Positions 4,761-52,587 of a stretch of DNA of 64,000 nucleotides are shown piece by piece. The stretch lies in the NCBI RefSeq assembly GCF_037392515.1, contig NC_090283.1, forward strand, positions 31,202,249-31,266,248, in the 5' to 3' direction. Under the pieces are notes generated by a model that was not told the origin of the DNA, ran no database searches, and was given only the letters and a program-made list of their open reading frames with translations. This stretch comes from Haliotis asinina (lineage: Eukaryota > Mollusca > Gastropoda > Lepetellida > Haliotidae). The stretch's first letter is position 1. Every line of letters begins with the position of its first letter. A program made the translations under genes and the position numbers.

Positions 4761-6216
4761 GTGAGTGAGTGAGTTAATATTTAACGTCACATCGGTAATA
4801 TTTCAGCCATATCGTGACAAGAACATTTAACGATGAAAAGGAATATGTGTATATTGTAAAACCTCTCAACGAAGGACAGTAAAATCACTCGAATATCACA
4901 ATCTGAATTAGAACTAGCGTGGAAAGTTAAAGCTAATATCACTGTTCGGACAATACACTGTAAAAACTGACTATAGATCACTAACAACTGAAGGTAGATC
5001 ACCATACTAGAGGCCATGGGGACTTACATTACTTCTGCTACTTGCATGGTCGATGCATGATGGATTTACACCATCCCCTCAGCTGCTGGCAACTGTGTGC
5101 AAGATTAGCCACAAATTAAAATGACAGAAATACTACGCCTAAAAAGAAGGAAGATTAAATTTGACTTCAGATGTTTTGGGACTTGCGTACCCTCTCAGGA
5201 GAACAATAATTTTACGGTACTTCAAACCCCTCGAGGATACAGCCACTAACAATGTCAGGAACTGTTGCTAATTTAACTTCCCATCATAAAATACTTATTT
5301 ATTTACAAGTCACTCAACAAATTTATTTCTTTAAAAATGCAATAATTAAATGGGAATTTACGTTACTAAAAAGGTCCTTCATAGTTCTTGATTTGAAATA
5401 ATTATCCCTTGTGATGGAATATTCGACACAGTCAAACAAGACATGCTTGTCCGTGATTATTTCATTACTAGGGATGCAGAACGGAAGATCCTCACCTTTC
5501 AATAAGTATTCATGCGTATATTTTGTATGGCCAATACGACATCGTCGCATGATGACCTCTTCAAATCTGCACTGACAGCTCAAGTAGGTGTAACCAATAT
5601 ACGGTTTTATTTCATGTAACCTGTTTATACCTACTTCAGCGTCCCACTTCTTCTGTATCAGATCACGGATGTAAATTCTAATGCTAGCTTTGTAATCGGA
5701 ATATGGAATAGGAAGTGGTGTCACAGATTTGTTGAGTGCTGCCTTGGCAGCAAGATCAGCCATTGGGTTCCCAGAAATGCCAACGTGGCTGGGTAACCAA
5801 CAAAAGACGATGTCATACTGGCCAGTAGCAAGATCATTAGACATTTCCATAATTTCAGTTAAAAGTGGATGTTTACAACAAATATTTTTAATAGCCTGAA
5901 GGCAAGAAAGGGAGTCGGAAAAAATGTTAAGCGGGAGTCAAAAATTAAACCCAAAACTTGGCCTCCTTCACAACTTTGATGGACGTGCAATTTAAAAATA
6001 GTTATGGTTCCTTGTGCAGCTTATATTTTCTACAAAAGTGTACACAATTAGTTTTTGACTTAGAACATTTAAAGTCCTTTCAAGACACCATTTATTTATC
6101 TTATTTAGACACAACTGCAGTTGTCGTTCAATAGTATGCATATTTTTACCTCGACAAGAAATATTAAAATCATCCACAAATAATGTTCCTTCAATTGAAT
6201 CGTTTAAAACCTTTGA

Positions 6217-7673: not shown

Positions 7674-9111
7674 AACTCTCTCAAAAAAGAAACGTAACCC
7701 TCGTGTTTTGACAATTTTATTTATAAGATTTAAGACAACACATCTTTTTTATTTGTGAAGACTCAGGTCTGATATTTGGCAAACTGATAACTGATATAAT
7801 CATGTTTGAAATGTGCAAATCAAATGCCATTTCATAGACCCCAGTTTGTCACCAGGGGGCGGTTTCCTCAGTATCTCGTATGGGCCCCACGAGCTTCAAT
7901 CACTGCACGGCATCTCCTTGGACAGGAACGAAAAAGTCCGCGGATGATTTCTTGTGGAATAGCTCTCCACTCCTCCTGCAATGCAACAGAGAGCTGTTGT
8001 AGAGTCTGCGGCGCAGGCTGACGTTGACGTGCGCGTCCATCGAGGGTGTCCCATAGGTGTTCGGTCGGGTTGAGATCGGGAGATTTAGATGGCCATGGCA
8101 GGACATTTACGTTAGAATTCTGCAGAAAGGCCGGGCGTTGTCATGTTGAAAAATCTGTCTCTGTCGATCAATAACTGGGAGAAGGTGAGGCTGCAACACG
8201 TCGTTGATATAGCGCTGGGCTGTCAGGTTGCCTTGAACGATCACTAAGTTCGATTTCTGGTTATAGGAGATGGCCCCCCATACCATTATGCTTCCACCGC
8301 CAAATCTGTCCACTTGTCTCATGCAGACAGGCGCAAAACGTTCTTGACGTCTCCTATACACACGCTGTCTTCCGTCGTGACGTTTCGGCACCATCTGAGT
8401 CGTTGGCGACGATGTAGGGGGCGCAGTACAGGTCGAAGAACTGGTCTACGAGCACGTAAACCCACTTCCTTTAGACGGTTCCTGACTGTTTGAGCTGACA
8501 CCCTCCTCAATCCGGGTATCTGTGTGGCTGTCACCGTTGGTAGGGCATGACGATTGCGTAGATGATGGACCCGGATGTACCGATCTTGAGCGTGGGTCGT
8601 GATTCTTGGTCTACCACTTCTAGGGCGGTCGTTTGTCGAATTAAAGTTAGTGTAACGATTCCAAAGTCGAGATATCGTTGTTTTATGAACGTTAAAGTGA
8701 CGTGCAACGGTTCCAAAACTTTCGCCAGCTTGAAGACGACCAATGGCGATATTTCTGTCAGCATTGCTCAATCGTGGCATTTTTAACGCTGCTTCTAGGC
8801 AACAAGTCAATGAATAAGATACGAAATCACACGAGCTTTTATACTCCCTTACATCAACTGCCAGTTTCATGTATTGCACGTGCATTTGTCTTTTTGTGCA
8901 AAGTCAGAAATGCCATTTCATGCGTTTTTCCCGAAATAAGCATTAAACTACACTTCTGTGTGAAAATGGGGTTGTTTGGATGATATTCCTCATTAATAAT
9001 GCGAAGTATTTGAATACATTTCCATAAAAGTTAGTTTGGTAAAATATAACATACATAAAACCTATTTTGAAAATCTGAATACAGGGGTTGCGTTTCTTTT
9101 TTGACAGAGTT
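7674..9111 (-). mobile_element. Tc1-like DNA transposon inserted in the LINE endonuclease
   Basis: A 1438-bp element with terminal inverted repeats: AACTCTCTCAAAAAAGAAAC at 7674 and the complement of AACTCTGTCAAAAAAGAAAC ending at 9111 (one difference in these 20 bases). TA flanks both ends (7672-7673 and 9112-9113). LINE endonuclease reading is found on both sides, so the insertion postdates the LINE. The transposase is on the minus strand and broken. Confidence 0.93.
7868..8780 (-). pseudogene. Tc1-like transposase, lacking the first catalytic motif
   Basis: The start is the ATG at 8780 (MPRLSNADRNIAIGRLQAGE), giving the paired-like HTH (SFGTVARHFNVHKTTISRLW) and the second HTH (RRVSAQTVRNRLKEVGLRAR). 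After LHRRQRLRWC the reading jumps to RHDGRQRVYRRRQERF: the stretch that normally holds the first catalytic Asp (SDESRF type) is absent, so about 25 codons appear deleted near 8390-8420, with a frame change. DRFGGGSIMVWGAIS and the second Asp motif HDNARP follow, then a further frameshift near 8125 before SPDLNPTEHLWD (third catalytic residue, Glu, DD34E) and the C-terminus ARGAHTRY with stop at 7868. Not functional. Confidence 0.9.
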
Positions 9112-13196: not shown

Positions 13197-16100
13197 CTAA
13201 TTCAAGGCATCACGGATAAGTGCCTTCTTTGTGTCAGTCATGGTGATATCTGCCCCACTTATCACCTTCATGTTGACTGTGTAGAGACCTGGCCACCCGG
13301 CACCAAACACGGGAAGAAGAGACTCCCTCAATTCAACATCAACCTTGGCTAAAACAACCTCTCTGTCCAAGTCGATGAAGGCGAGTCTCCCCCTTCCCAC
13401 ATCAAGAACAACGCCATAGTGGAGGGTGTCCAGTGTGCCGCGTGTGTTAGACATTGTGTTACTGTAACACTTCCCTTTCTTCCCCTGCTGACACACCCTG
13501 GTACAGAGACTCCCCAGGTGTGTGTCACAGCTCCCTACACAGACACACCAGGAGCTCTGCTGTAGATAAACATACCACCCACTGTCCACCTGGCTCTCCC
13601 CCACTACACCCACCTCCAGGACAACCCATCCCAACCCTCCACTCACCACACCCACCCTAGAGTGCGTCTCCCAGTACTGAGGGGTGTGTGGGGCAGGGAT
13701 GACAGTAGAGGGGGATGGAGGAAGGGGGATGCAGGTGGAGGCACGTGCACCCCGATATTTCCGTAACCTGCTGCTGTCTCTGTGTTGCTTGGCGGGCGGT
13801 GAGTTGACCAGCTCACCGTCTGTAGTTACGTGGCACATGTCTGTGTTGGCTCGAGCAGCGTCCAGTTGTAGTTGAGGACCTGGAAATATACATTCTGTAT
13901 ACAGTTTAACAAATTTCTCGACTTCAGATAACAAATTAGACATGTTAAATGTCATAATTGTGATTAAAGATATTACAACGTTGTGAAAATGTGTTTGTAT
14001 TCTAAATGTTTTTCATGCAAGTTTACACCGACTGACATTGAAATAAACACTCTACGATACATTTTGTAAGAAATTATTCGTTGAGCTGGTGTGCTCTCTG
14101 TAGTCAGAAATAGACATTTGGCGCCTGAAAACACATTTGTATAAACTTGATATCATGGTAAAACTTTCATTGTTTATATTCTAAACTCTTCTTATACGAT
14201 TTAGTGAACAATAAGACCGTCGTAGTAGTTGTTTGACGATATTTTTACATGAGTGTCTGTTATCAACAGGTAACCGCTTCAATCACTGACCACAATCTGT
14301 ACACACTCGCTGGGCGGGAAACAGCTTGTTAAGTTATGTGTATTGACTTGGACACATGGTTATTTATCATTACACTAAATATTTTAATGTTTGACATTTT
14401 TTCAAATTGATCATATTCGTATTTATTTACAAAGTTCATTACAAAGTTTATGAAAAGTATACACTTTTGCCGGGAGTACACTTAATGTTGCCAGTTAATT
14501 TTACGTATTTGACATTTACGTACTCATAGATCATATTTCACCAAACAAATCTTTAACACTTGCGAATGGAGAAAGTGTCGTTATCAATCAGTTTGTTAGA
14601 TCCATTCCAATAATATTCATGTAAATAACGCTATAAACTGCATTGAATACTGAGCTTGCAGTTTCAACGTTTATTCCGGTTTAGAAACACAAAATTGTAT
14701 TATCTACGTGATATATATGGGAAAACTCATTATTTAGGCATATTAACATATTTTGCTAAAAAACTCTTTAAGTATAACCTCCAAAGGGTAATTTCTTTAC
14801 AGGTTACCTTATATGCATCAAAGTTTTGACATGAGATTTTTCTAACGTTGATAGTGGCAACCTGATTAAGGAAAGTCAACTACGGCCCTGAATTGATTAT
14901 CAATTTGAACTTCCTTTGTACCATACAACTCTTGCAGTTATTAGGTGCACCAAGTTTTTGCAGTTTTCGCATCCATATGAGGTACCCATTTACAGCTGTG
15001 TGGATTGGGACACATAGCCACAGTACTTTGAACAAATGTACTGCACGTTGATGTACCCGCGAGGTTTTTGCACGTTTTCATGTGTCCAACGTTTGGTCAT
15101 TTACTGACGCATTGGTGGGTTCTTTTAAGTGTACAGGGTTCTGTAATGTACACTAGGGGTTGCGACAAAATTGGAAGAGTCTGCACACAAGGTTGTTGCA
15201 GCCAGTCACAGGTGGACTCCTTCCCGACACCTCAGGCTCTCTGGATCTTTATCCTTGGACATGGTAGACCTTTGCACCCTCACACCCTTTACTTCCTGAC
15301 ACCTCAAGCTCTCTGGATGTTTATCCTTGGACATGGTACACCTCGCACCCTTACACCCATTACTTCCTGACACCTCAAGTTCTCTGTATCTTTATCCTTG
15401 GACATGGTAGACCTCGCACCCTCAAACCCCAGGAGCCAATGCTTTAATGAGTCTAACTCCAATGCTTTACCATGCAGTCAGAAGATGGAAAACATACATA
15501 CATTATAACCAGTCCCATGTCTTTGATAAGGGCATGTCCGACACTAGACTGGGCCCCGAAAGGATATCACTGGTTGCACGCTAGGACAGTCAGTAACCTA
15601 TCCCTTTTCAGAAGGGCGCACATCAGTAGTGTAAAGTCACCAATCACGAGACTGACTTTACTCACACAGCAATGTCAACGTGGTGCCTGGTCCTGTTACC
15701 AGACTGTAGGTTTTACTCCCCGCATCTGTAAAACATTTCTAGGATTAAAGAACAAAACCAACAGTGCTTACAGACATGAAGAAATAAAGAGCATCTTCGA
15801 TGTTCAGGACTTGGGAGGTACTCCATCTTAGCATACTATTTCCACGACACATCTGGGTCTATTTAATAGTGAAGATTAAACACAAAATGTGACTGCTGTT
15901 GGGTATTGATAGCATGAAGGATCCTTGTCCATTATGTGTACACATGTCACAATACCAGGATAACATATTGTACAAAATCCGAATGTTCATTACCAAGCTG
16001 TGTATTTGCTAATGTCGTTAACTTGTGACCATTCGTTAATATTTCTATTCAAATCATAAGGATGTTTGGGAATGTGTTTCTGATATATCAGAATAGCTAT

Positions 16101-17815
16101 GTATCTATTGTGATAACATAGCAGGAGAGAAAAGAGAGATGTAAAACAGTTTTGCTGTTTTCTATTTTCATGATTGTTTTCAAGGTAATGAAAAATAACC
16201 TTACCAAACTCTGTCAGTGGTGTCGATTCGTTGACAGCCTCCGGTGACTTCGACTTGAAACGAAATAAGATAGCTCAACGTCGCGATCTTAGATTTACAG
16301 TTGGCATGTTTCAGCTTTAATATACACGCTCATTTTACAGACAATGCGAACATTATAAAATATGTACATCGGTAATCGTGGAGTGTTGATGTTGCTTACC
16401 TAATGAAAAAAGCTCGATGTGTATACGCATGGCTACAGAGTAAGAAGTACTTACCTGCTTGTGTGCGTTCTTCGTGTCAGTTAAATGTGTATCCTTGTCT
16501 GTAAGATAACCTACAGCTGTTCATTAATCAAACCTTTTATGTCATGATAACCAGCAAATGTTTCCTCAATTGATTTAAATGTTTCAATGAATTATTATTG
16601 GAAATGTCTAAATACAGCGTCGATATGCCATCTCAAGGTGACATTATATAATTGGAAAATATATATAAAAAAATGCTTCAAACATTTCACGTTTGATAAA
16701 GCTTTATCAGTATCACTGTAAACATTAAGACGTATTGTTAAAGTATGAAGTAAGCACCTGTATGTGTGTGTTTATCAGATGCTGATCCATGTCCATAGAT
16801 AGATCCGAAGGCAGAGATGTCGGATTTCAATTTATCCAGCCCTCTCGTGTTGAATTTGGCTGCAGGTGTCCTGTGCCTCTCTGGTGGAAGTGATCCGAGG
16901 TGCGTCTTCGTTCTGTCTTGTATTGAACCCTCCAGTGTGAGAAAGTCCGAGTTTGAAGCATATCTGAGCACGGTTTTGATATAGTCTGAGGTCCACTTGC
17001 ATCGTTCACCCTCACCTTCAGAGGTAACTTGCTCGGTGTGTAGATCTGACAGTTCCTGCCTCGTCTGATTCTCAAGCTCGCTGATCAGCTCCTCCTCCCT
17101 CTGGTCGAGTTGTGTCCTCAGAGAATGGAAAGTTTGATGGATGTCCTCCTTCAGAGCACTGCTTGTCTTCTCGATGTCATTTTGAACTTTGCTGATATTC
17201 TTCACATATGCTTTGTGAGCAGTATGATGTGCAGTCACGTTTTTCTCATGCTGTTCTATCCGTCCTTTAGCAGCATCAGCAGCCTCACCTACATCTCCAA
17301 CATCGTGCTCAGCATGGTCACCAAGCCTGCATGTGGCACAGATTAAAATGTTGCAGTTTTTGTCAAAATATTCGAGAGGATAAGGAATGTGAAGTTTGCA
17401 GATTGGTTTAGTATGTATGCTTCCTGGTGCTGCGTCTACAATGGTTTCAACAACATGTCGTCTGGTAGCTTTAAAACTGTTGTGCATGTTCTGGCAGTAT
17501 TCACAGAGTAACTCCTCACACTCCTGACACCAACACACAGCCTGGTTGCCGTCATCTTCGTGTGTACAGAGAAGCTCTGTAGGGCGATGTTTGGCTGTCA
17601 GGTGGAATATTTCCTTCTGTCTCACTGCATCCTTCTGGAGGCTTGTGTCTGTGAGGTTGACCTGCCTCTGACATGTAGAGCATTGTATCACACCACCAGC
17701 TGCAGATGTCACACATATCTCACACACGGCGTGTAGACAGGGCAGTAGGTAGGGGTCGGGGCCTTTCAGGGTAAACTGTTGGTGACAGACAGAACACTTT
17801 GGGAAGGCGTCCATT
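13197..17815 (-). CDS. TRIM-type E3 ubiquitin ligase (RING, two B-boxes, coiled coil, B30.2/SPRY-like), two coding exons
   Basis: Coding exon 1 runs from the ATG at 17814 to 16758; exon 2 from 13879 to the stop at 13197-13199. The intron (donor GT 16757-16756, acceptor AG 13881-13880) is phase 1 at both ends, giving about 579 residues. Exon 1 shows a RING finger (C7, C10, C26, H28, C31, C34, C45, C48), B-box 1 (about 83-120, C83 to H120), B-box 2 (C139, H142, C154, C162, H167, H170) and a coiled coil (about 175-270). Exon 2 has YWETHSRVGVVSGGLGWVVL and YGVVLDVGRGRLAFIDLDRE plus LLPVFG, B30.2/SPRY hallmarks. In the family the RING transfers ubiquitin and the SPRY domain binds targets, often in innate immunity. 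A strong acceptor (ttatatgtttcag) directly before the ATG implies a 5' UTR intron. A small symmetric exon between the two cannot be excluded. Confidence 0.85.
15226..15437. repeat. 71-72-bp tandem repeat, three copies, in the TRIM intron
   Basis: Copies start at 15226, 15298 and 15369, each beginning gacacctcaggctctctgg and containing tttatccttggacatggta. They differ at a few sites. The array lies in the 2.9-kb intron of the TRIM gene and has no coding role. Confidence 0.85.
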
Positions 17816-17839
17816 CTGAAACATATAATATGGATAGCA

Positions 17840-18180
17840 CAGATGTGTAGTAGAAGGGAGAGATGTGTCGAAGGAGGGAGGGGTGTGTGATAGGAGAAGG
17901 GTTACATATAACAGAGGTGTATATGTAGTAGGAGAAGTGGATACAAGTAGAAGGAATCAGGTGTGTAGTAGAAGGATGGGCACGTAAGGTTAGGGTGGTA
18001 CATGTGCAGAAGGGAGGGGGAGGAGCGCGTACCTGAATGAGAGAAAGTTGGGTAATAGAAGGGAGAGATGTATCTCAGCCTGAAGAATAGGTATATGTAG
18101 GAGAAACCGCTGGGGGAAGGTGGGAGACGAGGACAGGGAAGACAGGGATGGAGAGATAAAAAAAGACATTGGATCTCATG
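17840..18180. repeat. Purine-rich low-complexity block upstream of the TRIM coding exon
   Basis: Imperfect iterations of agaagggagagatgtgt and tagtagaag without a stable period. The block sits within or next to the inferred 5' UTR intron of the TRIM gene. Any regulatory role is speculation. Confidence 0.5.
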
Positions 18181-20956: not shown

Positions 20957-23007
20957 CCAACTTCACTGATTTCCGGTAGGCGTTTGGTTTTGTGGACAGA
21001 CAAAATTTGCTGTATATCTTACATAATATGGGTGTTGTTGGCATAATGTGTAACTTCTTACGTGACATGTAGGGTAAAACTAAGGCATGTATAGTGATGA
21101 ATATGTGTAAAACTGAATCGTTTTCAACACCATACAGCGTTCATCAAAGCTGTATGTTAAGCCCTGTTTTGTTCACACTTTATTAACAAGTTAGCAATAG
21201 AATTTAGAAACAGTAGTCTAAGAGGTACGGAAGAATTTGAACATAACTTTTCTTGTTGTTTGCTGATGATGTAGTGTTGGATGACGATTCAGTTAATCGG
21301 CTACAGCAAAAACTAGATTTTCTGCATAAGTGGGGTATAGAAGTTAACTTGGACAAGTCAAATATAATAGTCTTTCAAAATGGTGGATATTTAAAGAGCC
21401 TAGAGAAGTGGTTTTACTGGGGTAAGGAGGTTAAAATATTTGCTTACTATAAATATCTTAGTATTGTATTCTCTTCAAGGTTAGTTTGGAACAAGCCTAG
21501 AGAAGTGGTTTTACTGTGGTAAGGAGGTTAAAATATTTACTTACTATAAATATCTTAGTATTGTATTCTCTTCAAGGTTAGTTTGGTCCAAGGCTTGCGG
21601 AACTGTTTCAGTTCAAACTAGGAAGGCCTTGTTTCCGGTTTATAAGTAAATTAAGCTTTACCATTCACTCCCATTAAGTGTAGTTCAGAAAATATTGATG
21701 CCAAAATAATGCCAATCTTATTAATGGTTCGGAAATATGGGGTTGTACTTGTAGAGGGGACACTGAGAAAGTTCAAAGTTTATAAAAGTTTATTTCATAA
21801 AAGGTGCTTGAATATTTCAAAGTACATTCCCTCTCGTGTTTTTTTTCTTCTTTTTTTCTGTTGGCGATATCGATGTTGGCGGTGTTGGGAGGTATCTAGT
21901 TTGTGTAAGTTTCTTTAGTTGCTCTTTAGTTGCTCTAGTTTCAGATCTCTGCTAGACACGGAGCGATATCTATAGAATTGTTTAGTCATACAGATGTATT
22001 ACGAATATTTTGTAAATTTAGATTCCAGTCACACAAATTAAAAATGTGCAAAGCAACGTATGATAACGGTATTGATACTTGCCAACTGTTATGGTCTAAT
22101 TGTACAATGGGTGTTGTAGAAGATGGGTAACACTTTGTATTAGTTTGCCCATATCATAAGCATCTAAGCGAACAACTTTTTTATCAACTTTTGACTTCTA
22201 ACAATTCAGAACAAATACAAACAATTGTGTATATATTTGAAAAGAAGTTTATCTATGTGAGATGGCGTGCGTACTACTGAAAAATACTTTTATTTGCTCT
22301 TGGCCATGAGGCCTTTCCACAATAAACTTGTCACTTGTGAAATGGCACATATAGTGCTGTGTTGGGCGCATGGTAATATCGATGGTCTAAAGTACATAAT
22401 GTTTGTATCGGGTATGGGGTATTGTGTAGAGGATGGACAGTGTTGTGTTGTATAGTGGATATAGTTTACAGAGTAGAACATACGACGGTAGATGTAGACG
22501 AAGACGGTAGTGTGTTAAAAGTACAGTGTAAAGATTAGCGGACACTCTGGAGATCACAGAGCGTATACCAATCTGTGGAAAGCATAGTGTGACTAGTCTT
22601 GTTCGTGATGTCTCAGGATGTTCATATCACGGTGTTCATCTTGTGACATGGCTGTCATGGTTCGTCATGGTTATGACATTCACGGTCTGAAGGGCTGTTC
22701 CTGTCATAGCTTTCACGGTGTAATGCGGTGTTCATATCAGGCTGTTGGTTCTCCTACCGAGACAAACCCTCACTGACAGATTAGAACGGTTACATCTTTC
22801 ATGGTGAAGAACATGCTATACAAATGCACCATGGTGAGTGGGTTTGGACTGATGTCACTATCTTCACTATTTTCCTAATGACACAGTCCTGTCATTTTAA
22901 TTAGGCAGAAAAACAAGTACGTCTATGCAACTTCTAAATTGTGACTTTGGTAATATTGTACCGACATACTGGCAGATCTATGCCAGTCTTTAACTCTAAC
23001 TAAGGAA
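20957..23007 (+). mobile_element. Second copy of the decayed LINE (RT part and 3' region)
   Basis: Homologous to 2995-4760 over its length: cgtttggttttgtggacaga (palm motif A region), LFADDVVLDDDSVNRLQQKL (21253, catalytic motif), INLDKSNI-type segment, EKWFYWGKEVKIFAYYKYLS, and a degenerate C-terminal finger. The non-coding 3' part (22230-23007) matches 3960-4760. A 97-bp segment at 21399-21495 is tandemly repeated at 21496-21592. It is joined at about 20940 to the ORF1 of a different LINE, so the junction looks like a nested insertion or rearrangement. Confidence 0.8.
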
Positions 23008-23177
23008 AACAAGGAACCTTTAAACAAACAAAACATATCTGCAGGTAGCGTATTTGTAATATAATTATAATATTTTGGTTACATGCCTTTTTCTCGGGTT
23101 TGTATATGATATCAAGAAGACATATATAGTGATGAGCGTTTCCAGTTGAAATAGCGGACGATTATGAAGTATTAAGA

Positions 23178-23183
23178 TTTATT
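23178..23183 (-). terminator. Poly(A) signal AATAAA of the minus-strand lectin gene
   Basis: AATAAA on the minus strand lies about 20 bases after the stop codon at 23202-23204, implying a very short 3' UTR. Confidence 0.6.
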
Positions 23184-23201
23184 CTGTTCCAGATTACATA
23201 T

Positions 23202-26200
23202 TCAAACGTAGCAAGTCATCCAGTTATACTCGGAGTCGCGGATTTGAGTGTAGCTTCCTTTCTGTACTGTAACGGACATTCCAGACTTTGTGACGTTGGT
23301 TACAGTGACGTTCACGTTGTAGTTTGAACTGCTACTGTGAATGATGTCCATGTGAGTGAGGCTGTACATGGTGCTGGGGGCGTCGTAGAAGGGGTGGGAA
23401 TAACGTAGTGCCGACGTCCTAGGTAACCCGCTGCGAACGTCACCAAATCCGGAATCACCTGGGTTAAAATGTCAGTACAACGTCAGCACATACAGACAGA
23501 CATAACAGAAATAACAGTCAGTTGGCTGTGACTGGAAATCCACGATAAGTATACATAGTAATGTATGGACAATGCATGCTCTATTAAGAAGGTCTATCAA
23601 ACAAAGAAATCAGCACAAGAAAATCATCACGATTTCTCTAAGACATATGGATACTTCAAACATTAAATGGCCTAACAGTGGTTCTTAATTACATGCAATA
23701 CATACGATTTTTCTGAGAACAGTTTGGCAACCCTCTGTTCTTTTCGGAAGTACTTACATCCCATCAGCTCTATTTTCTCTGCTTTCTGTGACAGCGCTGT
23801 GTGGACAGAAAAGTGAATACATAGATATAGTACACATTAACGCAGTTGGGAAAACACACATTTCGTCAAAACAGTCAGAAACCAATGGACATAAGGATGC
23901 GTTCATAAGTATGAATTGCCTAATGAGAGAAACGTGAGCTAAGAATATATGTCCCTCAAATAGATAAGCTTGAAGAAGAGGCAATTGTCTGTGGACCGTT
24001 ACAATAAGCCTATTGGAGCAACCCTGGTACTGAAACTGTCAAGCTTACAGTTGTGAATGACCAGCGACGTGATGTCGACATGAGAATGTTGCATCCGTCT
24101 TTCTTCTCAATCACAGTACAGCTCTGGATACAACTGACTATTATTAAAGGTTTATTAATTGTGTGGATTATAACTTAAACTGGGTCCAGCCTTACAGATG
24201 CTGTTCTTGGAAGGACCCTCTTCACACTCTAAACCAAACCAACCCCGTCTTACTAGACCCCCTAAACCTACTGCTGCACCAGCAACACATATGTGTAATT
24301 ATAAAGACAAAGTCCGTCCTTCTTGGTCCTGCAGCCAGTGCGAACTAATCTGAAGGATTCAGCGAATCGGTGGCCCTATATCTGGGCTGACAGAAACCAC
24401 AGAGGTTATGACACGAGTAACAGCGCGCGCGAGAGAGAGAGGGCCACAGGTATGAGGCAGAGGAGCGCCAACAGCCATATTGCAAGGGCCCTGAACTGTG
24501 CACGTGGTACCATTACTGTTACAATGCCACAGGCAGATTTGCAGTACCCAAGACATGCCACAATCCTTACAACTCCACAGGCTGACTTGCAGCACTCAAG
24601 ACATGCCACAATCAGGCATACCACGTGTGGTGATCCCACATGGAGACCGCCATCTGCGTCCTCGTCATCTGCACATATGCCGGCAATGGAAACGGCGGCA
24701 ACGGCTCTAGGACATCCCGTTAGTCGTCGTACTGTGTGGAAACCAGGGACATCGTGGTGACCAAGGAATATCGCCGTCGTAGGTTACAATGGACTCTACG
24801 TCGCTGCCTGGTACGACATTATCAGCGAGTGGTTTTTGCAGACGGCAGTCAATTCACCATGCTCCATAATGATTGTATGTTTTGCTTTGAACTTAACAAT
24901 AATGAATAAGGGCGTTCATTTTCTCTTGTCCAGTAGTTTACTATCCAAATCGACAAAAAAATTGTAGCAGAGACCTAAGGGTGTAATCACACACAATGCT
25001 AATCTTCTTGTGGCTTGGGATGTTTGAGAGATGAGAGACAATAACCAGGTCTCCTTATATACCCATGAAAAACACAGAAAGATCTGTTCTCAGCGTCACT
25101 GGAGAGTCCGTCAGATGAAAATATGTCTTAATATACATCCAAGGTATTTAAAAAAGACTATAATGTGTACACTAGTAACATAACAGAATGGCGTTCCTTT
25201 GATCGCTGAACACATACACAAGGGTAACATACTACTACTGCCATGTTTAAACCCACTAAACAACATATATCTTATCAACATTGGCCTTTTAGTTCGCATA
25301 TAATTCCACATAACCAACTAGTTCGAAGTTAAGAAAACAGCATGATAAGGAAATACCAAAACAAAAACTAAACATAACAAATTGCAAAAAGAAAACAATG
25401 AAATACTAATGTATAAAATACAAAATCAAAACATAGAAATACACATAGCAATTTCCATCACGTAGTTCCTGCATGTCACACGCGTTTTCACTGGGTTCAA
25501 GTTGAATGAACTTTTAGGCAGATTTGTAGTACATCACTATCCATCACAGACTTTACAGTACAGGAAAGCCAAAGTTGCCTAACGCCCAACATTGACTCAT
25601 CGCTATCACATAAATCCTTTGGTCAGATAAGCTATTGTTCCCAACCGACCATAATGTGTTCCCCTCTCTGGGAAAAAAGACAGGGATTGCACAAGGATTG
25701 AATGATCAAATCAATCAACGAATTTATATCATCTTTACACTGATCTTACCTTGGAAGGTCTTCAGTAGAACGTTCCTCTCCGACATCTGATTGCTGGTGG
25801 CGTTGAACATTTCATCCAGGGACGTAGTTATGTTGTCTATGACGTCATGTGTAACAGAAAGGTCATGGTCACAATCATCTGCTAGAACTGTCAAATTGAC
25901 CCGTGATTCTGTTGTAGAATTGGTGTACCCTTGCAGCAGCTGCAGACGTTGTGTGGTCGAATTGATGACCCCAGTGATGTTCTGAATGCATACGCCACCA
26001 ACATAAACATCGCATATTGTCAGTTACTAGGATGTGTTTGATATTTCACAATCCCCACACTGTACAAGTAGTGCATATGCACATACTAAGTAAAAAATCG
26101 GGGACAGAATGAAGAGAATGATTTTACCCAATTCGTCTTTGAAGTAGTTTATTTAATACTACAACGTATATACTTTTTGACACAACATGCATTTTCTAAG

Positions 26201-27489
26201 TTGTGATAATCCATAAAATCTAAATAAAATGTAACCATCATGTACCAATACATTAATATACACATGAACATTAAAATTACATATCTGAAAGAAATGACAA
26301 TTTCGTAAGTTTTGGATCAAACAAGCGACCGTATCTTGGCGTTACTGAAAGCCTTTTGGAAAGCACTCGAAAAGCTAAGGGTCGCATGTTCTCGTGCTGC
26401 TAAGCTCCAAGCACACTGGGGTTCCAACATGGCAATATTTTCACGGTCATTTTCTGAACTGGTTTGCGAGACGAATTCAATAACTTCTCGTGACATGGCA
26501 GGGTGGTTATTGTCATGGCTGACGCAGTGATGCCATCATTTCTTACTTGATCATTGTCCTCATAGCAATTGTGGTCACAGCTCACTGCTGTACAGTATCG
26601 TTAAAGACATGTAAGATCAGGGGAAACCAATGACCAATGATGACCAAGTCTTAATTCGGTTGGGAAGATGCAATGTTATGATCCAGATGCAGGCATTAAT
26701 CAGCAAAAGTCAGACTCTCCATCAGAGCCATCAGAAAGTGGTTTCGGGCTGTTGGTCAAAGGGCATGTCGTCCGACCTGACGCCCTGTCCTCAATACCGC
26801 AGTAATGGTGATGACTATATAGTGTCATGATGGATCACATTACAACACCAGGGGCAGTCAATGGTCAGTATTATGAGCACCGATACCATCGTCCAAATGT
26901 AGTCCCAAATGAAGCCTCGTCAAATGTCTTTGTGGTGGTCTTCTGTGTTAGAGATCGAGGTAGAGATGCTTCTGTTTAAAATCTGCATGATAGCTCTATT
27001 GGAATGTTGGAAATTTGACCTTTGACTGCCAATATGAGGATGAGACGGGTGGCTTCATCTGGAACTGATATGGTCGCAACTGGTATTTCATACGATCACA
27101 ACAATCACCATGTGAGTCACCCTAACCCAAATGCATTAACTATTACGGATTCATGTTAGGAGAACATTATGACTGAGAAACAAAACTACTCCAACCTTTA
27201 CACGTCCATCCAGGTGCCGAATTCGCTTCCCAATCAATATAATATTTTCTCGGGGAGTCACCACTGATGAATTGACGTTCAAGATGGCATTTTCCAGTTG
27301 AACAACTCTTGATGACAGAGAGGTTCCTGTTTGCCTCACCGCTTCCAATCGCTGACGAAGGGCAGGCAACTCTTTAAGAAACAGCATGAACCCGTCAAAG
27401 CTCAACTGAAACGACGGATCCATAGTGGACGGGAGGGACTGTGCTGTCATCACTCCTAAGGACACAAACACAAAGATGGAGAGACTCAT
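23202..27489 (-). CDS. Secreted coiled-coil protein with H-type lectin domain (minus-strand member of the pair), four exons
   Basis: Exons: 27489-27202, 25981-25750, 23796-23758 (39 nt), 23458-23202; intron phases 0, 1, 1; 271 residues. The start is the only ATG giving a signal peptide (MSLSIFVFVSLGVMTAQS). Exon 1 then has a coiled-coil-like stretch (about 30-72). Exon 2 is a second helical stalk with six N-glycosylation sequons (97, 103, 117, 125, 146, 156) and C133. The third exon is LSQKAEKIELMG. Exon 4 is a C-terminal domain (C187 onward) with FYDAPSTMYSLTHMDIIH, NVNVTVTNVTKSGMSVTV and the end YNWMTCYV, fitting the H-type lectin pattern (Helix pomatia agglutinin, discoidin) including the late Trp (266). 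The family binds GalNAc-type sugars and oligomerises; binding here is inferred. Donors are gtaaag, gtaaga, gtaagt. Paralogue of the gene at 27935-32381. Confidence 0.82.
24430..24870 (+). mobile_element. Tc1-like transposase fragment in intron 2 of the minus-strand lectin gene
   Basis: Broken frames show IARALNCARGTI (first HTH), TAATALGHPVSRRTVW (second HTH) and VVFADGSQFTMLHND, corresponding to the first DDE-motif region (usually FSDESRF). A 48-bp segment containing ccacaggcagatttgcag is repeated in tandem at 24527 and 24575. No terminal inverted repeats are recognised, so this is a relic. Confidence 0.65.
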
Positions 27490-27934
27490 CTGTACAACTC
27501 TGCAATGACGGAATGGTTGAATGGTGTATAGCACAGACACAAAGCTTCAGATTATCAGTGTATCACGGGTGTGGGAAATCTGCACCTGTGCACATAGTGA
27601 CATGGGTCTTTTAATGTCGCCAGAGATAGCGACTTAATGAGGGCATGTTGGCGTGCAGAACATGCAAACGACAGTATCAATATGGCGTAGACACCTGCAT
27701 CTATATGTCTTTTTCTCGTCTTAATTTTCGTGTGGGAACAGCGATTCATACCTTTCTCCAATTTGTGTCGGTTTCCGCTGCCTAATGGTGTATTTGGGAT
27801 AAGTCCTGAAGTTATTTTATTTCAGGTTTCTGGAACAGAGCATTGACTGAACTTGGGGTTATCTATAGGTAACATATGATAAGACAAATGTTAGTAGTCG
27901 GTCTACGAAATAGTTGGTGTTAGTGTTCGGCATT
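27490..27934. promoter_or_regulatory. Intergenic region between head-to-head lectin genes, candidate bidirectional promoter
   Basis: Only 445 bp separate the two start codons, and the genes point away from each other, so both 5' ends and at least their core promoters must lie here unless an upstream non-coding exon exists. I see no convincing TATA box for either direction. On the minus strand cgtcattgcag just before the ATG could be an acceptor of a 5' UTR intron, which would push that promoter further toward, or into, the other gene. Confidence 0.55.
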
Positions 27935-30900
27935 ATGAGTGGTGTTATGTATATCAATATAGTACTCCTCTGCTTAAATATCTGGACAACGAATTCCGCG
28001 ACTACATCAATGAGTGCATCTACGATTGAATCAACGACTGCACGGACGACTTTATCGATGACCTTGGACCCACTTCTCCAGAGCGGTATGGGCGGGTTCC
28101 TACAACTGATTCAGGAGTTCGGATCTCTCCGAGCCCAAGTTGAACAGCAGGAAGAAGCCAACAAGCTTCTCCAGGACAAGGTTGCCAGACTGGAGGCCTT
28201 GTTGAAGCTGGTTAACACTACGGCAGTGCTGGAAACCGACTACCTTAAGCAGGGATCCATGGTAAGTGGGATACCGGCACATACACATAGATGTAAGTAG
28301 TAGTGTGATGTAGCCTAATGGTTGAAGCGTTCACAAGTCACGCCGAAGACCGGGTTCAATTCCTCACATGGGCACAATGTGTGAAGTCCATTGTCTTGTG
28401 TGTGGTCCTCGCCGTAATATTGTCGGAACAGTGCTAAAAACGGCCCAACACAGTACTCACTCTACAACTCTGTAAGTAATATATTTGCTCTCGTGTGTGT
28501 GTGTGTTTGCGCCGATAGCTTGTGGTGACAGATTTATGCTCAGTTGTTCCACCACTTTTTCATCCCAGTAATATACATGCTGATTTTCTGTGGAATAGAA
28601 GAGGTTAGATTTTTTATAAGATCTGGAGTATTGTGATAGAAGCGTCCGCTCAACGCGCCACACAACAGGGTTCGATTCCCCTCACAGTGTTTGAAGCCCA
28701 TTTCTGGTGTCCCTCGCCGTAATAGTGCAGGAATAGTACTAATAGTGTTATGCCAGAAACAGGTATGGGAAATCAAATAACGTGACGATCGAACGCTACT
28801 GCCACTTGGCTTCCCCACCGCCCTTAAACATTAGTATTGACGGAACGTTTGCATTTAGGTGCAACAGGAGATATCAACTCTGCTGCAAACTACAACGTTC
28901 ATCGAGGCAGAGATGACGAATGCCGTGGCGACTGCAACGATGTTGGAGATGGAAATGATGAAAGTTGAGAAGTCTCTGGATGACGTCACCGACTGCCATG
29001 ACACATTCAAAGCGAGGCTGGACAACATGACGTCATCTTTGGTGGACACCACTAATGAAACAAACCGTCTTACATTCAACTCTGAGATGTTGAATCAGAC
29101 AATGGAGGAGCTCAACAAAGACATCAGGGAGTTGACCAGCAAAGGAGATGGTACATAGAATTGTTTCTCCACTAGTTGTAATCGAAAGAATTGTTTGTTT
29201 TGATGTGAGTGACGTAGGTATTATTCTGCTGTAAACAATATTTTGCTATATCACGACGTATACATTCACTGAGTAAAGCCGGAAATGACGAAGGGTTTTG
29301 GCACTTTGGCGAAATCCGCTAGCAGTATATGGTGCTTATGAATCTGGAATTATAATCCGTCAAAACTTTATCATGTTTCATGGTTACTGAGTTACCAGTG
29401 TTTCTGTATTGACCTGAACGTTGTAAGGTTCCTTCATAATGTCAACCTAATGTATACTAACCCGTGTCTGATGAAACAAATGTGTGTGTATCTACACCAT
29501 GGCGTTGTTCAATTACTAAGATTTTGATAGCTTCTTTTTCAGGGAATTAGGTAAAACGCGACATAACAATAGTAACCATATTTTATCATGTAGACTGTCA
29601 TTGTGCATACCCATGTTAATGGTTCATAGTAGTTGCAGTTGCAAGTATAATCCTGTCTGATTCCTATACTTTCAGTGGAATGTATCTGTGATGGTTCTTT
29701 GTGTTATAACGTCATTTATTGCATTGTATATAGACTTTCCTACGGTTTGAATTTGAATTTTTAATTGAATTTTGATTCAAGCATATTTTTAAGCAAGTCT
29801 GCACGATAAGATCCTTTATGGTTTGCACAATTTGGAACCATGTTTGTTTCCAAACAATATGTTGTTGAACTCGGAGTTACAGTTCACCCTGGCTTTAGTG
29901 CAAGTCTCCTGAACGGATTTCCTGCCTAAATGATACCCTGGTTATAATGCAAAACTGCATAAAATGCCAGCTGATAAACCTTTTGAAAGAAAAACTCATT
30001 TTTCCCTGGTTACAATGTCAATGACTGGCGACATGTAGTACACATATCTAAATCGGTTAATTGACATGACTCGAATTAATTACAGTCTTATAATACCAGA
30101 TAGGATAACACATGACAATACACCAACAAGTCACCTGCAACCCCCAGACGCTGGGATTGTCAAGGCTCATTAATTATACTAGAGGAGACATCAAGTCAGC
30201 CACCTCGTTGATTGCATAGGACCTCTTACTGTCCTACGTGGTTATAATGCCATCCCGGATATAATGCCATATTATCTCCTAGGAAAACGGCGGCATCATT
30301 ACCAGGGTATGCTATGCTAACACTCCGTCGATGGTGAAGCAGCTTACACGCAGCAGTTCATGTTATGCACAAAACAGTCTGCTTTCAGGATAAGGGAAAT
30401 AATGTCTTTATGTCATATCCTATAGGTGTAAATGATGGTCTTTGTTTCTCTCCCTTCGGTAAATCACAGCCTTGATTATGAAATAACCTAAATATAATAA
30501 ACAATGGTTGATCAAGGGGATTTTGGGAAAAGCATGGTGCCCAGAATGGGAGAAAACGTCATCGCAAGCGTCGAGGATTTCATTTTATGAAACCATGCGT
30601 GGTCAATCAGCACAAACTGGAACAGGTAGTGCAGACAGAAAGGATGCCCATGCTCCTGTGTGTCTTTCGTTGAAAGAGCTGAAGGTTGATGCAAACGAAC
30701 CTGACAAGTACAAGTTAGCTCATCATAGTCAAGCCCCATATGCAGTGCTAGCTGCTGGAGAGGGGAGCACGATTTTTCTGCTTTGTCAGAATTGCATACA
30801 TTGGCATGACTTCAGCTCACAGCCGAATTTAGCTTGCCTTCGAACAAGACCCGTGGTGTTTAGTCAGTGTGTACAAGGTGATCTTGGATGGGTTCTATGT

Positions 30901-32381
30901 TCTCCGAAGGGTCCCATCTCTGGTTTGTTTGGTGGGACACCAGAGAAATGTAGAGTGCAGAGATGGTTTCCTGTTTACTGGTCCTCGAGTTTCGGTGCGG
31001 TAGCGCTATGAGGGACGTGAACATTCTGTTCAGGGGACTCATTTTGCTCTTTTTAAGTCATCATCATAAGAATAAGCTTACTTGAAACAGAACATCTGCA
31101 ATCATTTTGATCTTTTTAGGTCCGTCGTCATGCTGTCAACGTTACATCACCATCATCCTCATCATAATCATCATAATCATCATCGCTACTTATGCCCAGA
31201 TTAATGTTCCGTAAGAATAAGCTTACTTGAAACAGAACATCTGCAACCCATGTTTGCCATAAAAGGCGACTATGCTTGTAAGAGGCGACTAACGGAACGG
31301 TGGTCAGACTCGCTGATTTGGTTGACACATATCATCGGTTGCCATTTGCACAGATCGATGATCATGCTGTCATCACCGGATTGTCTGATCCAAGCGTTTA
31401 CAGACCGCCGCCATATAGTTGGAATATTAGCATAAGACTAAACTCACTTACTCACCCTTATCTAAATGACCCGTAAAGCTCAGGGGCAGAACCCATACTT
31501 GTAATAGGAAGGCGACTAATGGGACAGGGTGGTCACACACGTCATCGAATCTCAATAGCGTAGATTGATGGTCATGCTATTCATCCCTGAATTGTCTTTG
31601 ATTACTTACAGACCTGCGCCATATAACAGAAATATTGTTGAGCAGCGTAACACTAAGTTACTCACTCACCCTTGTCTAAATGAAACCGTCTATAACTAGA
31701 ATGCATGTGACCATGTGTTTCCCGGAACAAACTTGAGTATCAACGCCCACGTGGACACAAATTTCCCTCGTCAATATTACAATACAATGTTTAAGGTTTC
31801 TTGTACTTCGTTGAATTTCAGACCTGAAAATGTCAACGAGCAGACTCGACAGCGTGGCCTGTGAGTAGTATACGAATAATGCTATGCTTATTGAACTAAT
31901 TTTACCTTGGAAAATACTTGTCTGGTGAATGTTAAACAAATACTATAAATTCTATTAATATATAACTTTGAATTGTGGCAGTACGCCATGAAAGCGGCAA
32001 GAAATTATTCAAAAGCTGTTACAGTCGATGTTATGGAAGGCTATGGAATATTTGATCTATATCTTGTGGCTTATCGTTTATAATGTTGTTTCAGGCCAGT
32101 CAGGAAGGCTTTTCTTCAGAGGTAGCAGTAACTATCGGTACTCGAATACCAGATATGAACAGTGGCCCGAGAATCAAAGGGTTCAATTCACCAAGCAGTT
32201 CATGCGACCACCGACTGTTTCCTACGGCGTGGTTGGTATGGAAGCGGACAAAGACTATGACGTCAAATTCAATCTGACCATCAGTGACGTCAGGAGGTCG
32301 GGGTTCCTACTACAGTGTAATGCCAATGGGAAAGGCGAGCTTGTGAAACTAGATGTCCAGTGGTTGGCATGTCTCGTGTAG
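27935..32381 (+). CDS. Secreted coiled-coil protein with H-type lectin domain (plus-strand member of the pair), four exons
   Basis: Exons: 27935-28261, 28859-29150, 31822-31860 (39 nt), 32095-32381; phases 0, 1, 1; 314 residues. The start at 27935 gives a signal peptide (SGVMYINIVLLCLNIWTTNS); the same frame upstream has no ATG. A Ser/Thr-rich linker (about 20-43) and a coiled-coil segment (about 54-90, LRAQVEQQEEANKLLQDKVA) follow. Exon 2 continues as a helical stalk with C155. The third exon is LKMSTSRLDSVA. Exon 4 (C220 onward) is a typical H-type lectin domain: VQFTKQFMRPPTVSYGVVGM, YDVKFNLTISDVRRSGFLLQ and VQWLACLV with W309. Donors gtaagt, gtacat, gtgagt; acceptors gcatttag, gaatttcag, ttgtttcag. 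Likely an extracellular multimeric sugar-binding protein (defence or egg/mucus lectin is possible). Paralogue of 23202-27489. Confidence 0.88.
28302..28462 (+). mobile_element. tRNA-derived SINE in intron 1 of the plus-strand lectin gene
   Basis: tgtagcctaatggttgaagc (A box), accgggttcaattcc (B box) and a 3' part with cgccgtaatattgtcgg and tactcactctac follow the abalone SINE pattern seen at 12249. Confidence 0.8.
28620..28760 (+). mobile_element. Second, more decayed tRNA-derived SINE in the same intron
   Basis: cagggttcgattcccctcac (B box), gaagcccatttctggtgtcc and tcgccgtaatagtgcagg align with the family core; the A box and 3' tail are poorly preserved. Confidence 0.7.
29936..30307. mobile_element. 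Probable MITE with CCCTGGTTATAATGC-type inverted ends
   Basis: The left end ccctggttataatgc and the complement of the right end ccctggtaatgatgcc are imperfect inverted repeats flanked by TA (29934-29935 and 30308-30309). Variants of the same motif recur inside (ccctggttacaatg at 30006, gtggttataatgccatccc at 30239) and just outside (ccctggctttagtgc near 29887). No coding sequence. The ends remind me of pogo/Tigger-type elements, but the family is unproven. Confidence 0.5.
30508..31011 (+). other. Unassigned 160-codon open frame inside intron 2 of the plus-strand lectin gene
   Basis: An uninterrupted frame with Cys/Trp-containing stretches such as ACLRTRPVVFSQCVQGDLGW and LFGGTPEKCRVQRWFPVYWS. 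I do not recognise the product. It is too long to dismiss at once in AT-rich DNA, but the paralogous gene has no counterpart and the spliced model skips it. A remnant of a transposon-carried gene following the MITE is one possibility. Confidence 0.25.
31147..31189. repeat. Trinucleotide-rich (ATC/ATA) microsatellite
   Basis: Imperfect catcat and aatcat iterations. A 33-bp direct repeat containing agaataagcttacttgaaac flanks this area (31069-31101 and 31215-31247). Confidence 0.8.
31237..31460 (+). mobile_element. Abalone-type SINE, family 2, copy 1
   Basis: acccatgtttgccataaaag, gaggcgactaacggaacgg, tcaccggattgtctgatcc and tacagaccgccgccatatag in order, ending in aactcacttactcaccc. This is the same family as 42024-42300 (minus). 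Confidence 0.85.
31468..31677 (+). mobile_element. Abalone-type SINE, family 2, copy 2 (directly following copy 1)
   Basis: Starts cccgtaaagctcaggggcag and contains aaggcgactaatgggacagg, gaattgtctttgattac and cagacctgcgccatataac, ending gttactcactcaccc. It is in the same orientation as copy 1, inside intron 2 of the plus-strand lectin gene. Confidence 0.85.
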
Positions 32382-32465
32382 TCAGTTCCATGATCGTACA
32401 TTGTCTGAGAAGAAGTTCACCAAAGTGTGTTAAGATATTCTTCATGTACTCGTTTAGCTGTTGGG

Positions 32466-32471
32466 AATAAA
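32466..32471 (+). terminator. Poly(A) signal AATAAA of the plus-strand lectin gene
   Basis: AATAAA lies 85 bases after the stop codon at 32379-32381, at a normal place for a short 3' UTR. Confidence 0.7.
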
Positions 32472-32479
32472 GACGATGA

Positions 32480-34110
32480 AGCAAAATGTACAAAAATAAC
32501 ATCCTTAAATTCAACCTGGAGCACTCGCAGTGGAAAGAAATATCATCAAATATCATATGTAAGAGATAGTTATTCGTAAAGACAATTATGAAATAAGAAA
32601 TTCCGTAAAGGAGGTATTTATATATAGATGTTTTAACATTTGTCTGTGCTCAGTTTAATCGTTTCTGCATGGAGAATATTCGTTGCACTTTACCCTAATT
32701 GTCCAGACACATTAAACTTGAGCCGGTTACTTTAACCTTTCACGTATCAATCCTGAGTATGGTACCCTCAACTGTTGTCTCAATGAGACTGTCAAATCAA
32801 TTACCGAGCCCGATCAAACAGTGCTGTAGTCATCGCGATGTCATCTGATGTACTTATCACTGGCAGAGATGTATATTTCACGTGTCTATTTCTGCCACAA
32901 ACGAACAAAATTCATGGCTTTGGGGTCAGTCAGCGGGACTTCAAAGACGCGCTCTGATCTTTCTCAGCTTCACCACACGAAAGAGCGTGCGTTAAGCTAC
33001 GTTTTTAAATCATTTCTCAATCAGAAAGATTAAATGCGTTCATCGGTAGCGCTTGAAATCAAAGGTGAATGAAAAAAAGGAATAAAAATTAATAACGAGA
33101 CTTTTATGGCCTGGCTGACAAGAGAGGTGAAGAACCTTATATTCCCTACGAGATTCATATGAAGCAACTTTGAACGTTTAAACTCTGCAATTTGATAGTT
33201 CAGATGTGTATTTCATCGGATAGCGCAGTTTGCTGTGTTCTTCAATCGGTTTCGTGACATTTGTTTCGAACAAATCCATTTTAGAGAATCAGAATCAGAC
33301 CGATTATTGTTGATGTAAATAAAGGGACACAAATCTTTTCACTCCCCCTAAGTTCTGGCTGTGTCGTCAGTACGTGACTGTTTGTTTAAGACAATTCAGA
33401 AATATTACAGCTGCATGACAATGTTTGTGTACAATCAGGTCTGGAACCGCTAACCTAGTGATTGACCTCATGAAGTACGGTGGGAGGGCATGTTTTTATA
33501 AATCAGTATCAACTAGTGATAATGCTATGTGTTCTCATAGAGTTAAGCGGATCCTGCTCAGCCGGTAGAAGACGCCATAAATATATGTTAATTCTAGTCC
33601 TTAGTTCACACAGAGACATTTTGGAACGTGTGGTGGAATATCGAATTGGGGAATATCCTCTAATATAATTGTTATTAATGTTGCGTTCAATGTGTATAAA
33701 TCTAAACAAAAACCCATTCAACCATCTGCAGCTTACTTTATCAAGAAAATCAGGACATTCATGACAGTTGTCCGACTCGACACTGAGATGTGAATAGACC
33801 ACCTTGTCTCGGTTGTTCGGACATGTTGACAATCAACTGACAAAGGTGCACACCTTCACAATAATAGACCCATCCAGTTGTGACACTGTCATGGAATGTA
33901 TTAGTATTCACTTGATCAGGTCCAGCTGAGCAAGCCGCAAAGGAACAGTTATTCGCGGAGGGCAAGCGGCAGTAAAATCTTCTCAATGTTTCATGTTTTC
34001 GCGGAAACCAGAGTCAGGAAGTTTCAGAAATAATAATGAACATTAACATCAGTTCGAGTCTGGTTAAAGTATTACGCCATGGTGTTTCATCTTAAAGTGA
34101 ACTTTTTGTC
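32480..34110. other. Gene-free stretch
   Basis: Open frames of 60-107 codons exist but carry no recognisable domain or consistent splice signals. Nothing further is seen. Confidence 0.4.
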
Positions 34111-52220: not shown

Positions 52221-52587
52221 GGTGTTTCTTAGTACTCATTAAACCTGTTTCTTAGTACTCGTTAAACCTGTTACTTAGTGCTCATTAAACCTGTTTCTTA
52301 GTACTCGTTAAACCTGTTACTTAGTGCTCATTAAACCTGTTTCTTAGTACTCGTTAAACCTGTTTCTTAGTACTCGTTAAACCTGTTTCTTAGTACTCGT
52401 TAAACCTGTTTCTTAGTACTCATTAAACCTGTTTCTTAGTACTCGTTAAACCTGTTTCCTAGTACTCGTTAAACCTGTTTCTTAGTACTCTTTAAACCTG
52501 TTTCTTAGTACTCGTTAAACCTGTTTCTTAGTACTCGTTAAACCTGTTTCTTAGTACTCGTTAAACCTGTTTCTTAGTACTCGTTAC
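52221..52587. repeat. 23-bp minisatellite, about 16 copies
   Basis: The unit is cctgtttcttagtactcgtt plus aaa. The first part alternates two variants (tttctt...actcgtt and ttactt...gctcatt), forming a short 46-bp higher-order pattern. The rest is nearly uniform, which indicates recent expansion of one variant. Confidence 0.95.

Follow-up and report, generated by a model that had tools for sequence, protein, structure and literature searches.

A 64,000-nucleotide stretch of the Haliotis asinina genome (NC_090283.1, forward-strand positions 31,202,249 to 31,266,248; hereafter the window) holds two divergent neighbouring genes predicted to encode stalked, secreted H-type lectins. The genes lie on opposite strands, with start codons at 27935 (plus gene) and 27489 (minus gene) and a gap of 445 bp between the two ATGs. 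Both models comprise four exons with intron phases 0, 1, 1 and a reading frame that stays open throughout, as the initial annotation had proposed for this locus, and all 12 of the 12 splice sites conform to GT/AG. Exon lengths are 327/292/39/287 nt in the plus gene and 294/232/39/257 nt in the minus gene, giving predicted products of 314 and 273 amino acids, respectively. Stop codons number 4 to 52 in every frame of each of the six introns, so the exons stand out against them, and an AATAAA motif starts 85 nt downstream of the plus stop codon and 19 nt downstream of the minus one. The models are weakest at the minus exon 1 donor (AAG/gttgga); an alternative donor two codons upstream (CGT/gtaaag) would leave the phase unchanged. 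Intron 2 of the minus gene (23797-25749) also contains, by eye, the frame-shifted remains of a Tc1-like transposase at about 24620-24870 on the plus strand. Two long frames near these remains had no Pfam match up to an expect value (E) of 0.01, and the same holds for a 174-codon open frame in intron 2 of the plus gene (30487-31011, plus strand).

Both predicted proteins have a hydrophobic leader, some 165-175 residues with strong coiled-coil periodicity and, at the C-terminus, a single H-type lectin domain, i.e., the design of leader, coiled coil and single terminal head is found in each. The leader was assigned from N-terminal hydrophobicity and the coil from heptad periodicity alone. After the leader, residues 22-43 of the plus protein form a Ser/Thr-rich linker, possibly O-glycosylated, that the minus protein lacks; sequons number 5 in the plus protein and 9 in the minus protein.

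The assignment of the heads rests on the Pfam family H_lectin (PF09458), whose curated cut-off is 24 bits. Exon 4 scored 46.9 bits in the plus gene and 37.1 bits in the minus gene (43.9 and 34.1 bits, respectively, for the whole proteins), and the minus head covers profile positions 6-65 of 67. The H-type lectin that had been annotated in exon 4 is thus upheld for both genes. Among solved structures, a sequence search with the plus head returned Helix agglutinins (E 0.08-0.22), SLL-2 (E 0.58) and an unrelated cytochrome (E 0.73), and the minus head returned SLL-2 alone (E 0.46). For the plus head, AlphaFold was run with two sequences and returned five models with mean predicted local distance difference test (pLDDT) values of 70.0, 57.3, 43.3, 41.3 and 34.3, the best of which was the sole Foldseek query. 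Its top five matches were SLL-2 and four Helix agglutinin entries (E 2.3e-4 to 8.6e-4), with template modelling (TM) scores of 0.71-0.73 on query length, 13-18% identity and a root-mean-square deviation (rmsd) of 2.9 to SLL-2. The best model thus predicts an H-type beta-sandwich for the plus head. A viral fold library returned phage proteins (2 matches, E up to 0.001), some of them named as H-type lectin domain or tail fibre. A W-x-x-C motif lies near the C-terminus of both proteins.

The identity of the sugar is a separate matter. We take R63, W83 and H84 of Helix agglutinin to be part of its N-acetylgalactosamine (GalNAc) site. The plus gene has K/N/G at these positions and the minus gene N/G/S, in a loop of uncertain alignment; two residues further on, a Tyr is present in the minus gene. 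In the same alignment, SLL-2 retains the R and W of R63 and W83. The two heads thus appear to differ from each other at the aligned positions. GalNAc binding, which the initial annotation named for the family, thus finds no support here, since neither gene keeps these residues. Sugar binding is possible for both heads, but it would be premature to presume GalNAc as the ligand.

The stalks, measured from a conserved Asp-Pro in exon 1 to the cysteine at the stalk-head junction, span 175 residues with one proline in the plus protein and 165 residues with three prolines in the minus protein. The best heptad core is 58% hydrophobic in the former and 68% in the latter, versus 31% and 33% overall, a value reached by 0 of 2000 shuffles in each case; exon by exon, periodicity of 3.4-3.6 gave shuffle p-values of 0.0005 to 0.01. 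Such strong heptad periodicity agrees with the helical, coiled-coil stalks suggested earlier. The exon 1 coils of the two proteins align in the same heptad register. The minus stalk keeps a single register in 19/19 windows; in the plus stalk, the register shifts by three near the boundary of exons 1 and 2, where windows that start at 87-108 are mixed. Cysteines common to both proteins occur in the middle of exon 2 (110 residues past the Asp of Asp-Pro in the plus protein and 111 in the minus protein), in the codon at the exon 3/4 junction and in the terminal W-x-x-C. The distance from the stalk cysteine to the junction cysteine is 65 residues in the plus protein versus 54 in the minus protein.

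Relatedness of the two genes is evident at their ends. Full-length BLASTP, as a single comparison, aligned the proteins over 288 columns at 20% identity (E 1.6e-7). The local scores of the exon 1 pair (83) and the exon 4 pair (68) were reached by 0/2000 shuffles, and paralogy is therefore firm at both ends of the genes. The scores of the intervening pairs were reached by 169/2000 shuffles (exon 2) and 1244/2000 shuffles (exon 3), i.e., no sequence similarity clearly beyond chance. The paralogy claimed by the initial annotation thus stands for exons 1 and 4 and is not shown by sequence alone for exons 2 and 3, whose homology is argued from position, phase and length. Over a 60-codon block of exon 1, the proportion of synonymous differences (pS) was 0.75 and that of nonsynonymous differences (pN) was 0.49, which points to an old duplication with near-saturated silent sites and an exon 1 protein better kept than its synonymous sites. 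Origin by inverted duplication, also put forward earlier, was not demonstrated: blastn found no DNA-level similarity between the genes (best E 0.68), silent sites have diverged as described, and the longest of 12 inverted-repeat pairs in 23000-33000 measured 31 nt at 71%. A single window may be compatible with either an inverted duplication or a later coming together of two genes. A dense local lectin cluster was not seen within the 64 kb: with an E limit of 10, tblastn searches with the two proteins returned, besides the genes themselves, three chance-level matches (E 9.3-9.8). Searches for relatives in a viral contig collection (34 pattern stretches) and a genome contig collection (19 pattern stretches) confirmed none; these are viral, bacterial and archaeal collections and so are little informative.

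The 39-nt exon 3 is a further shared feature. In both genes it has phase 1-1 and ends in T, which is uncommon as the last base of exons. When exon 3 is included, the codon split with exon 4 reads T/GC or T/GT and places a Cys at the stalk-head junction; when it is skipped, the codon reads G/GC or G/GT and encodes Gly, the frame is kept without a stop and the stalk is 13 residues shorter. The terminal T in both mini-exons suggests that the junction cysteine is kept by selection. Equal-length mini-exons with strong sites no more than 400 nt from exon 4 arose in both genes in 4/1000 paired dinucleotide shuffles, or in 1/1000 when both also had to end in T; lifting the 400-nt limit raised the figures to 56/1000 and 15/1000. 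The limits were chosen once the exons were known, and the figures therefore flatter the result. Farther upstream lie further mini-exon candidates with strong sites, one in the plus gene and seven in the minus gene. It is conceivable, though a long shot, that the exon acts as a splice switch on disulphides, through which one divergent locus would supply a two-gene stalked lectin with or without the link, or in homo- as well as hetero-forms.

Taken together, these features make it quite probable that each gene encodes a secreted, stalked, oligomeric recognition lectin of the H-type, and that the two are old, diverged paralogues, probably forming separate homo-oligomers. The coiled coil would bundle the chains, most likely three at a time given that trimers make up Helix agglutinin, and cysteines within the stalk or where stalk and head meet would tie them together. 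The bundled heads would then point the same way for high-avidity binding of repeated surface sugars, as is thought for ficolins and coiled-coil C1q-domain proteins, and the two homo-oligomers would probably differ in sugar preference. A likely role would be to agglutinate or opsonise microbes, or to serve in mucus or egg fluids. Restriction of the H-type lectins of Cornu aspersum to the protective mucus, one of three mucus types, speaks for the mucus role in the retrieved excerpt of that study (PMC10475054). For avid binding to glycans of microbes or mucus, a trimer with its heads clustered would be the natural guess; oligomer size, target and role are inferred.

Several observations weigh against this picture. 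By sequence, the heads match solved H-type lectins weakly (E 0.08 or more). The fold of the plus head was drawn from the best of five models that ranged from 34.3 to 70.0 in mean pLDDT, and its rmsd to the Helix agglutinin entries was 5.6. The minus head was modelled poorly (mean pLDDT 53.5), and nothing was drawn from it. The Helix sugar-site residues appear replaced in both genes, and we therefore infer sugar binding from the fold. In the BLASTP alignment, the mid-stalk cysteines are offset by three columns. An immune or mucus role, likely as it is, derives from the family.

The 445 bp between the start codons form a candidate shared promoter. One TATA pattern was tried there and had no match in either direction; the stretch has one CCAAT match, four GATA-type matches and a composition close to the window average, and a bacterial promoter scan is uninformative for animal DNA. 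Acceptor-like strings (TTATTTCAG on the plus strand and TTGCAG on the minus strand) leave room for 5' untranslated exons, and untranslated first exons may lie upstream of either ATG. A co-regulated pair served by one bidirectional promoter, with chains mixing into hetero-oligomers of mixed specificity, would fit the short distance between the ATGs, the continued adjacency of so old a pair, the common exon layout and the shared heptad register of the exon 1 coils. Yet the lack of a match to the TATA pattern tried and the near-average composition of the 445 bp speak against it, the plus stalk shifts register near the exon 1/2 boundary where the minus stalk does not, and the 11-residue difference in cysteine spacing means that a mixed bundle linked at both cysteines would need looping out or an offset. 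Differing spacing and register thus count mildly against a matched hetero-coil, and we consider co-regulated hetero-oligomers rather unlikely.

The chances are about even that the genes are ordinary neighbouring paralogues, set head-to-head by an accident of duplication or rearrangement and without a functional link. The lack of a DNA trace of inverted duplication in the blastn and inverted-repeat searches would agree with this, as would a mobile neighbourhood in which 2 of the 10 open frames scanned had transposase matches above cut-off; the lack of a local cluster does not, nor does the statement, in the excerpt retrieved, that H-type lectins are not expanded in molluscs (PMC8878817). Accidental pairing is compatible with stalked lectins as the gene products. 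Decay or mis-modelling of one or both genes, for example the minus gene as a pseudogene, would challenge the products themselves. The weak donor of minus exon 1 and the lower Pfam score and poor model of the minus head lean that way, but neither frame is interrupted anywhere in its four exons, the minus head retains a match to nearly the whole profile, AATAAA is present and the exon 1 protein is better kept than its synonymous sites, and we consider decay or mis-modelling very improbable. In itself, the pairing is of interest only if expression data reveal the two genes working together; the junction-cysteine exon common to both provides a concrete splice and disulphide test.

Among known proteins, the agglutinins of Helix pomatia and Helix aspersa (PDB 2ccv, 2ce6, 2cgy and 4q56) are mollusc lectins of the same fold and Pfam family. 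However, their solved chains of about 100 residues leave no room for a stalk as found here, the plus gene has Met for Cys42 of the Helix chain, and neither gene keeps the GalNAc-site residues R63, W83 and H84. The galactose-binding lectin SLL-2 (PDB 3wmp), presumably from a soft coral, came first in the fold search with the plus head (E 2.3e-4) and is the only chain that the minus head matched, weakly. It shares the C-terminal W-x-x-C with both genes, but it is a 94-residue chain without a stalk, and its Trp at the Helix W83 position is found in neither gene. According to the retrieved text of one study, fibrinogen-related domain (FReD) and C1q-domain proteins with coiled coils, like animal coiled-coil C-type lectins, have the same order of signal peptide, coiled coil and C-terminal recognition head, with heads from families other than H-type (PMC8878817). 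HREPs, in the same excerpt, are likewise gastropod multi-part proteins with an H-type head; they carry an immunoglobulin (Ig)-like domain where the extra part is helical here, and no Ig family appeared among the Pfam matches listed for the two proteins (best 25 of 36 for the plus protein, 7/7 for the minus protein).

The literature, in the excerpts retrieved, places these proteins in context. Helix agglutinin consists of two trimers joined by disulphides (PMC8431231). In molluscs, the coiled coil is frequent in secreted proteins with fibrinogen and C1q heads, where others have collagen, and may permit oligomers as collagen does in ficolins (PMC8878817). H-type lectins amount to 5 genes in Aplysia (PMC9334734), 6 transcripts in Mytilisepta (PMC5549309) and 12 transcripts in the slug Arion (PMC4795696), and the H_lectin domain is listed in gastropod shell matrix proteins (PMC6368272). 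Animal H-type lectins appear there as single heads or, in gastropods, as the Ig fusions named HREPs (PMC8878817), and in the literature searched a single paper mentions both an H-type lectin and a coiled coil, without joining them in one protein in its excerpt. A search for abalone H-type lectins found no dedicated paper by title among the matches listed, and one for a head-to-head mollusc lectin gene pair found only papers judged unrelated by title. Predicted proteins of this stalked kind may well sit unremarked in databases. If the stalked-lectin interpretation is true, the H-type head has also been placed on an oligomerising stalk, as the excerpt describes for mollusc fibrinogen and C1q heads (PMC8878817); it is an unusual variant of the familiar design of stalk and head, not one new in kind.

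Table 1. Features of the divergent lectin locus, in window coordinates.
Feature	Position	Strand	Description	Basis
Plus exon 1	27935..28261	+	Hydrophobic leader, Ser/Thr-rich linker, first part of predicted stalk	Gene model, heptad register, homology to minus exon 1
Plus exon 2	28859..29150	+	Second part of predicted stalk, stalk Cys155	Gene model, heptad periodicity
Plus exon 3	31822..31860	+	Symmetric phase 1-1 39-nt exon, end of predicted stalk	Gene model, mini-exon shuffles
Plus exon 4	32095..32381	+	H-type lectin head and stop	Pfam PF09458 46.9 bits, AlphaFold model, Foldseek
Candidate poly(A) signal AATAAA, plus gene	32466..32471	+		Motif
Possible shared promoter (candidate)	27490..27934		445 bp between start codons	Distance, composition, motifs
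Minus exon 1	27196..27489	-	Hydrophobic leader, first part of predicted stalk; 3' end may be 27202 with the alternative donor	Gene model, heptad register
Minus exon 2	25750..25981	-	Second part of predicted stalk, stalk Cys135	Gene model, heptad periodicity
Minus exon 3	23758..23796	-	Symmetric phase 1-1 39-nt exon, end of predicted stalk	Gene model, mini-exon shuffles
Minus exon 4	23202..23458	-	H-type lectin head and stop	Pfam PF09458 37.1 bits
Candidate poly(A) signal AATAAA, minus gene	23178..23183	-		Motif

Elsewhere, the window has 44 open frames of at least 105 codons, and the Pfam scan covered 10 of the window's open frames. A 271-codon frame at 13197-14012 on the minus strand had no Pfam match up to E 0.01. 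A 387-codon frame at 16741-17901 (minus strand) is TRIM-like, with a B-box above cut-off in two stretches and a sub-threshold RING match. Three further minus-strand frames (1025-1579, 8322-8903 and 5326-5937) gave a Mariner-like Transposase_1 and a Tc1-like HTH_Tnp_Tc3_2 match above cut-off, plus a sub-threshold RNase H match that sits, by eye, in an apparent non-long-terminal-repeat (non-LTR) element. Two tandem arrays were also seen, one at 1-915 (63-bp unit, 14.5 copies) and one at 52223-52586 (23-bp unit, 15.8 copies).

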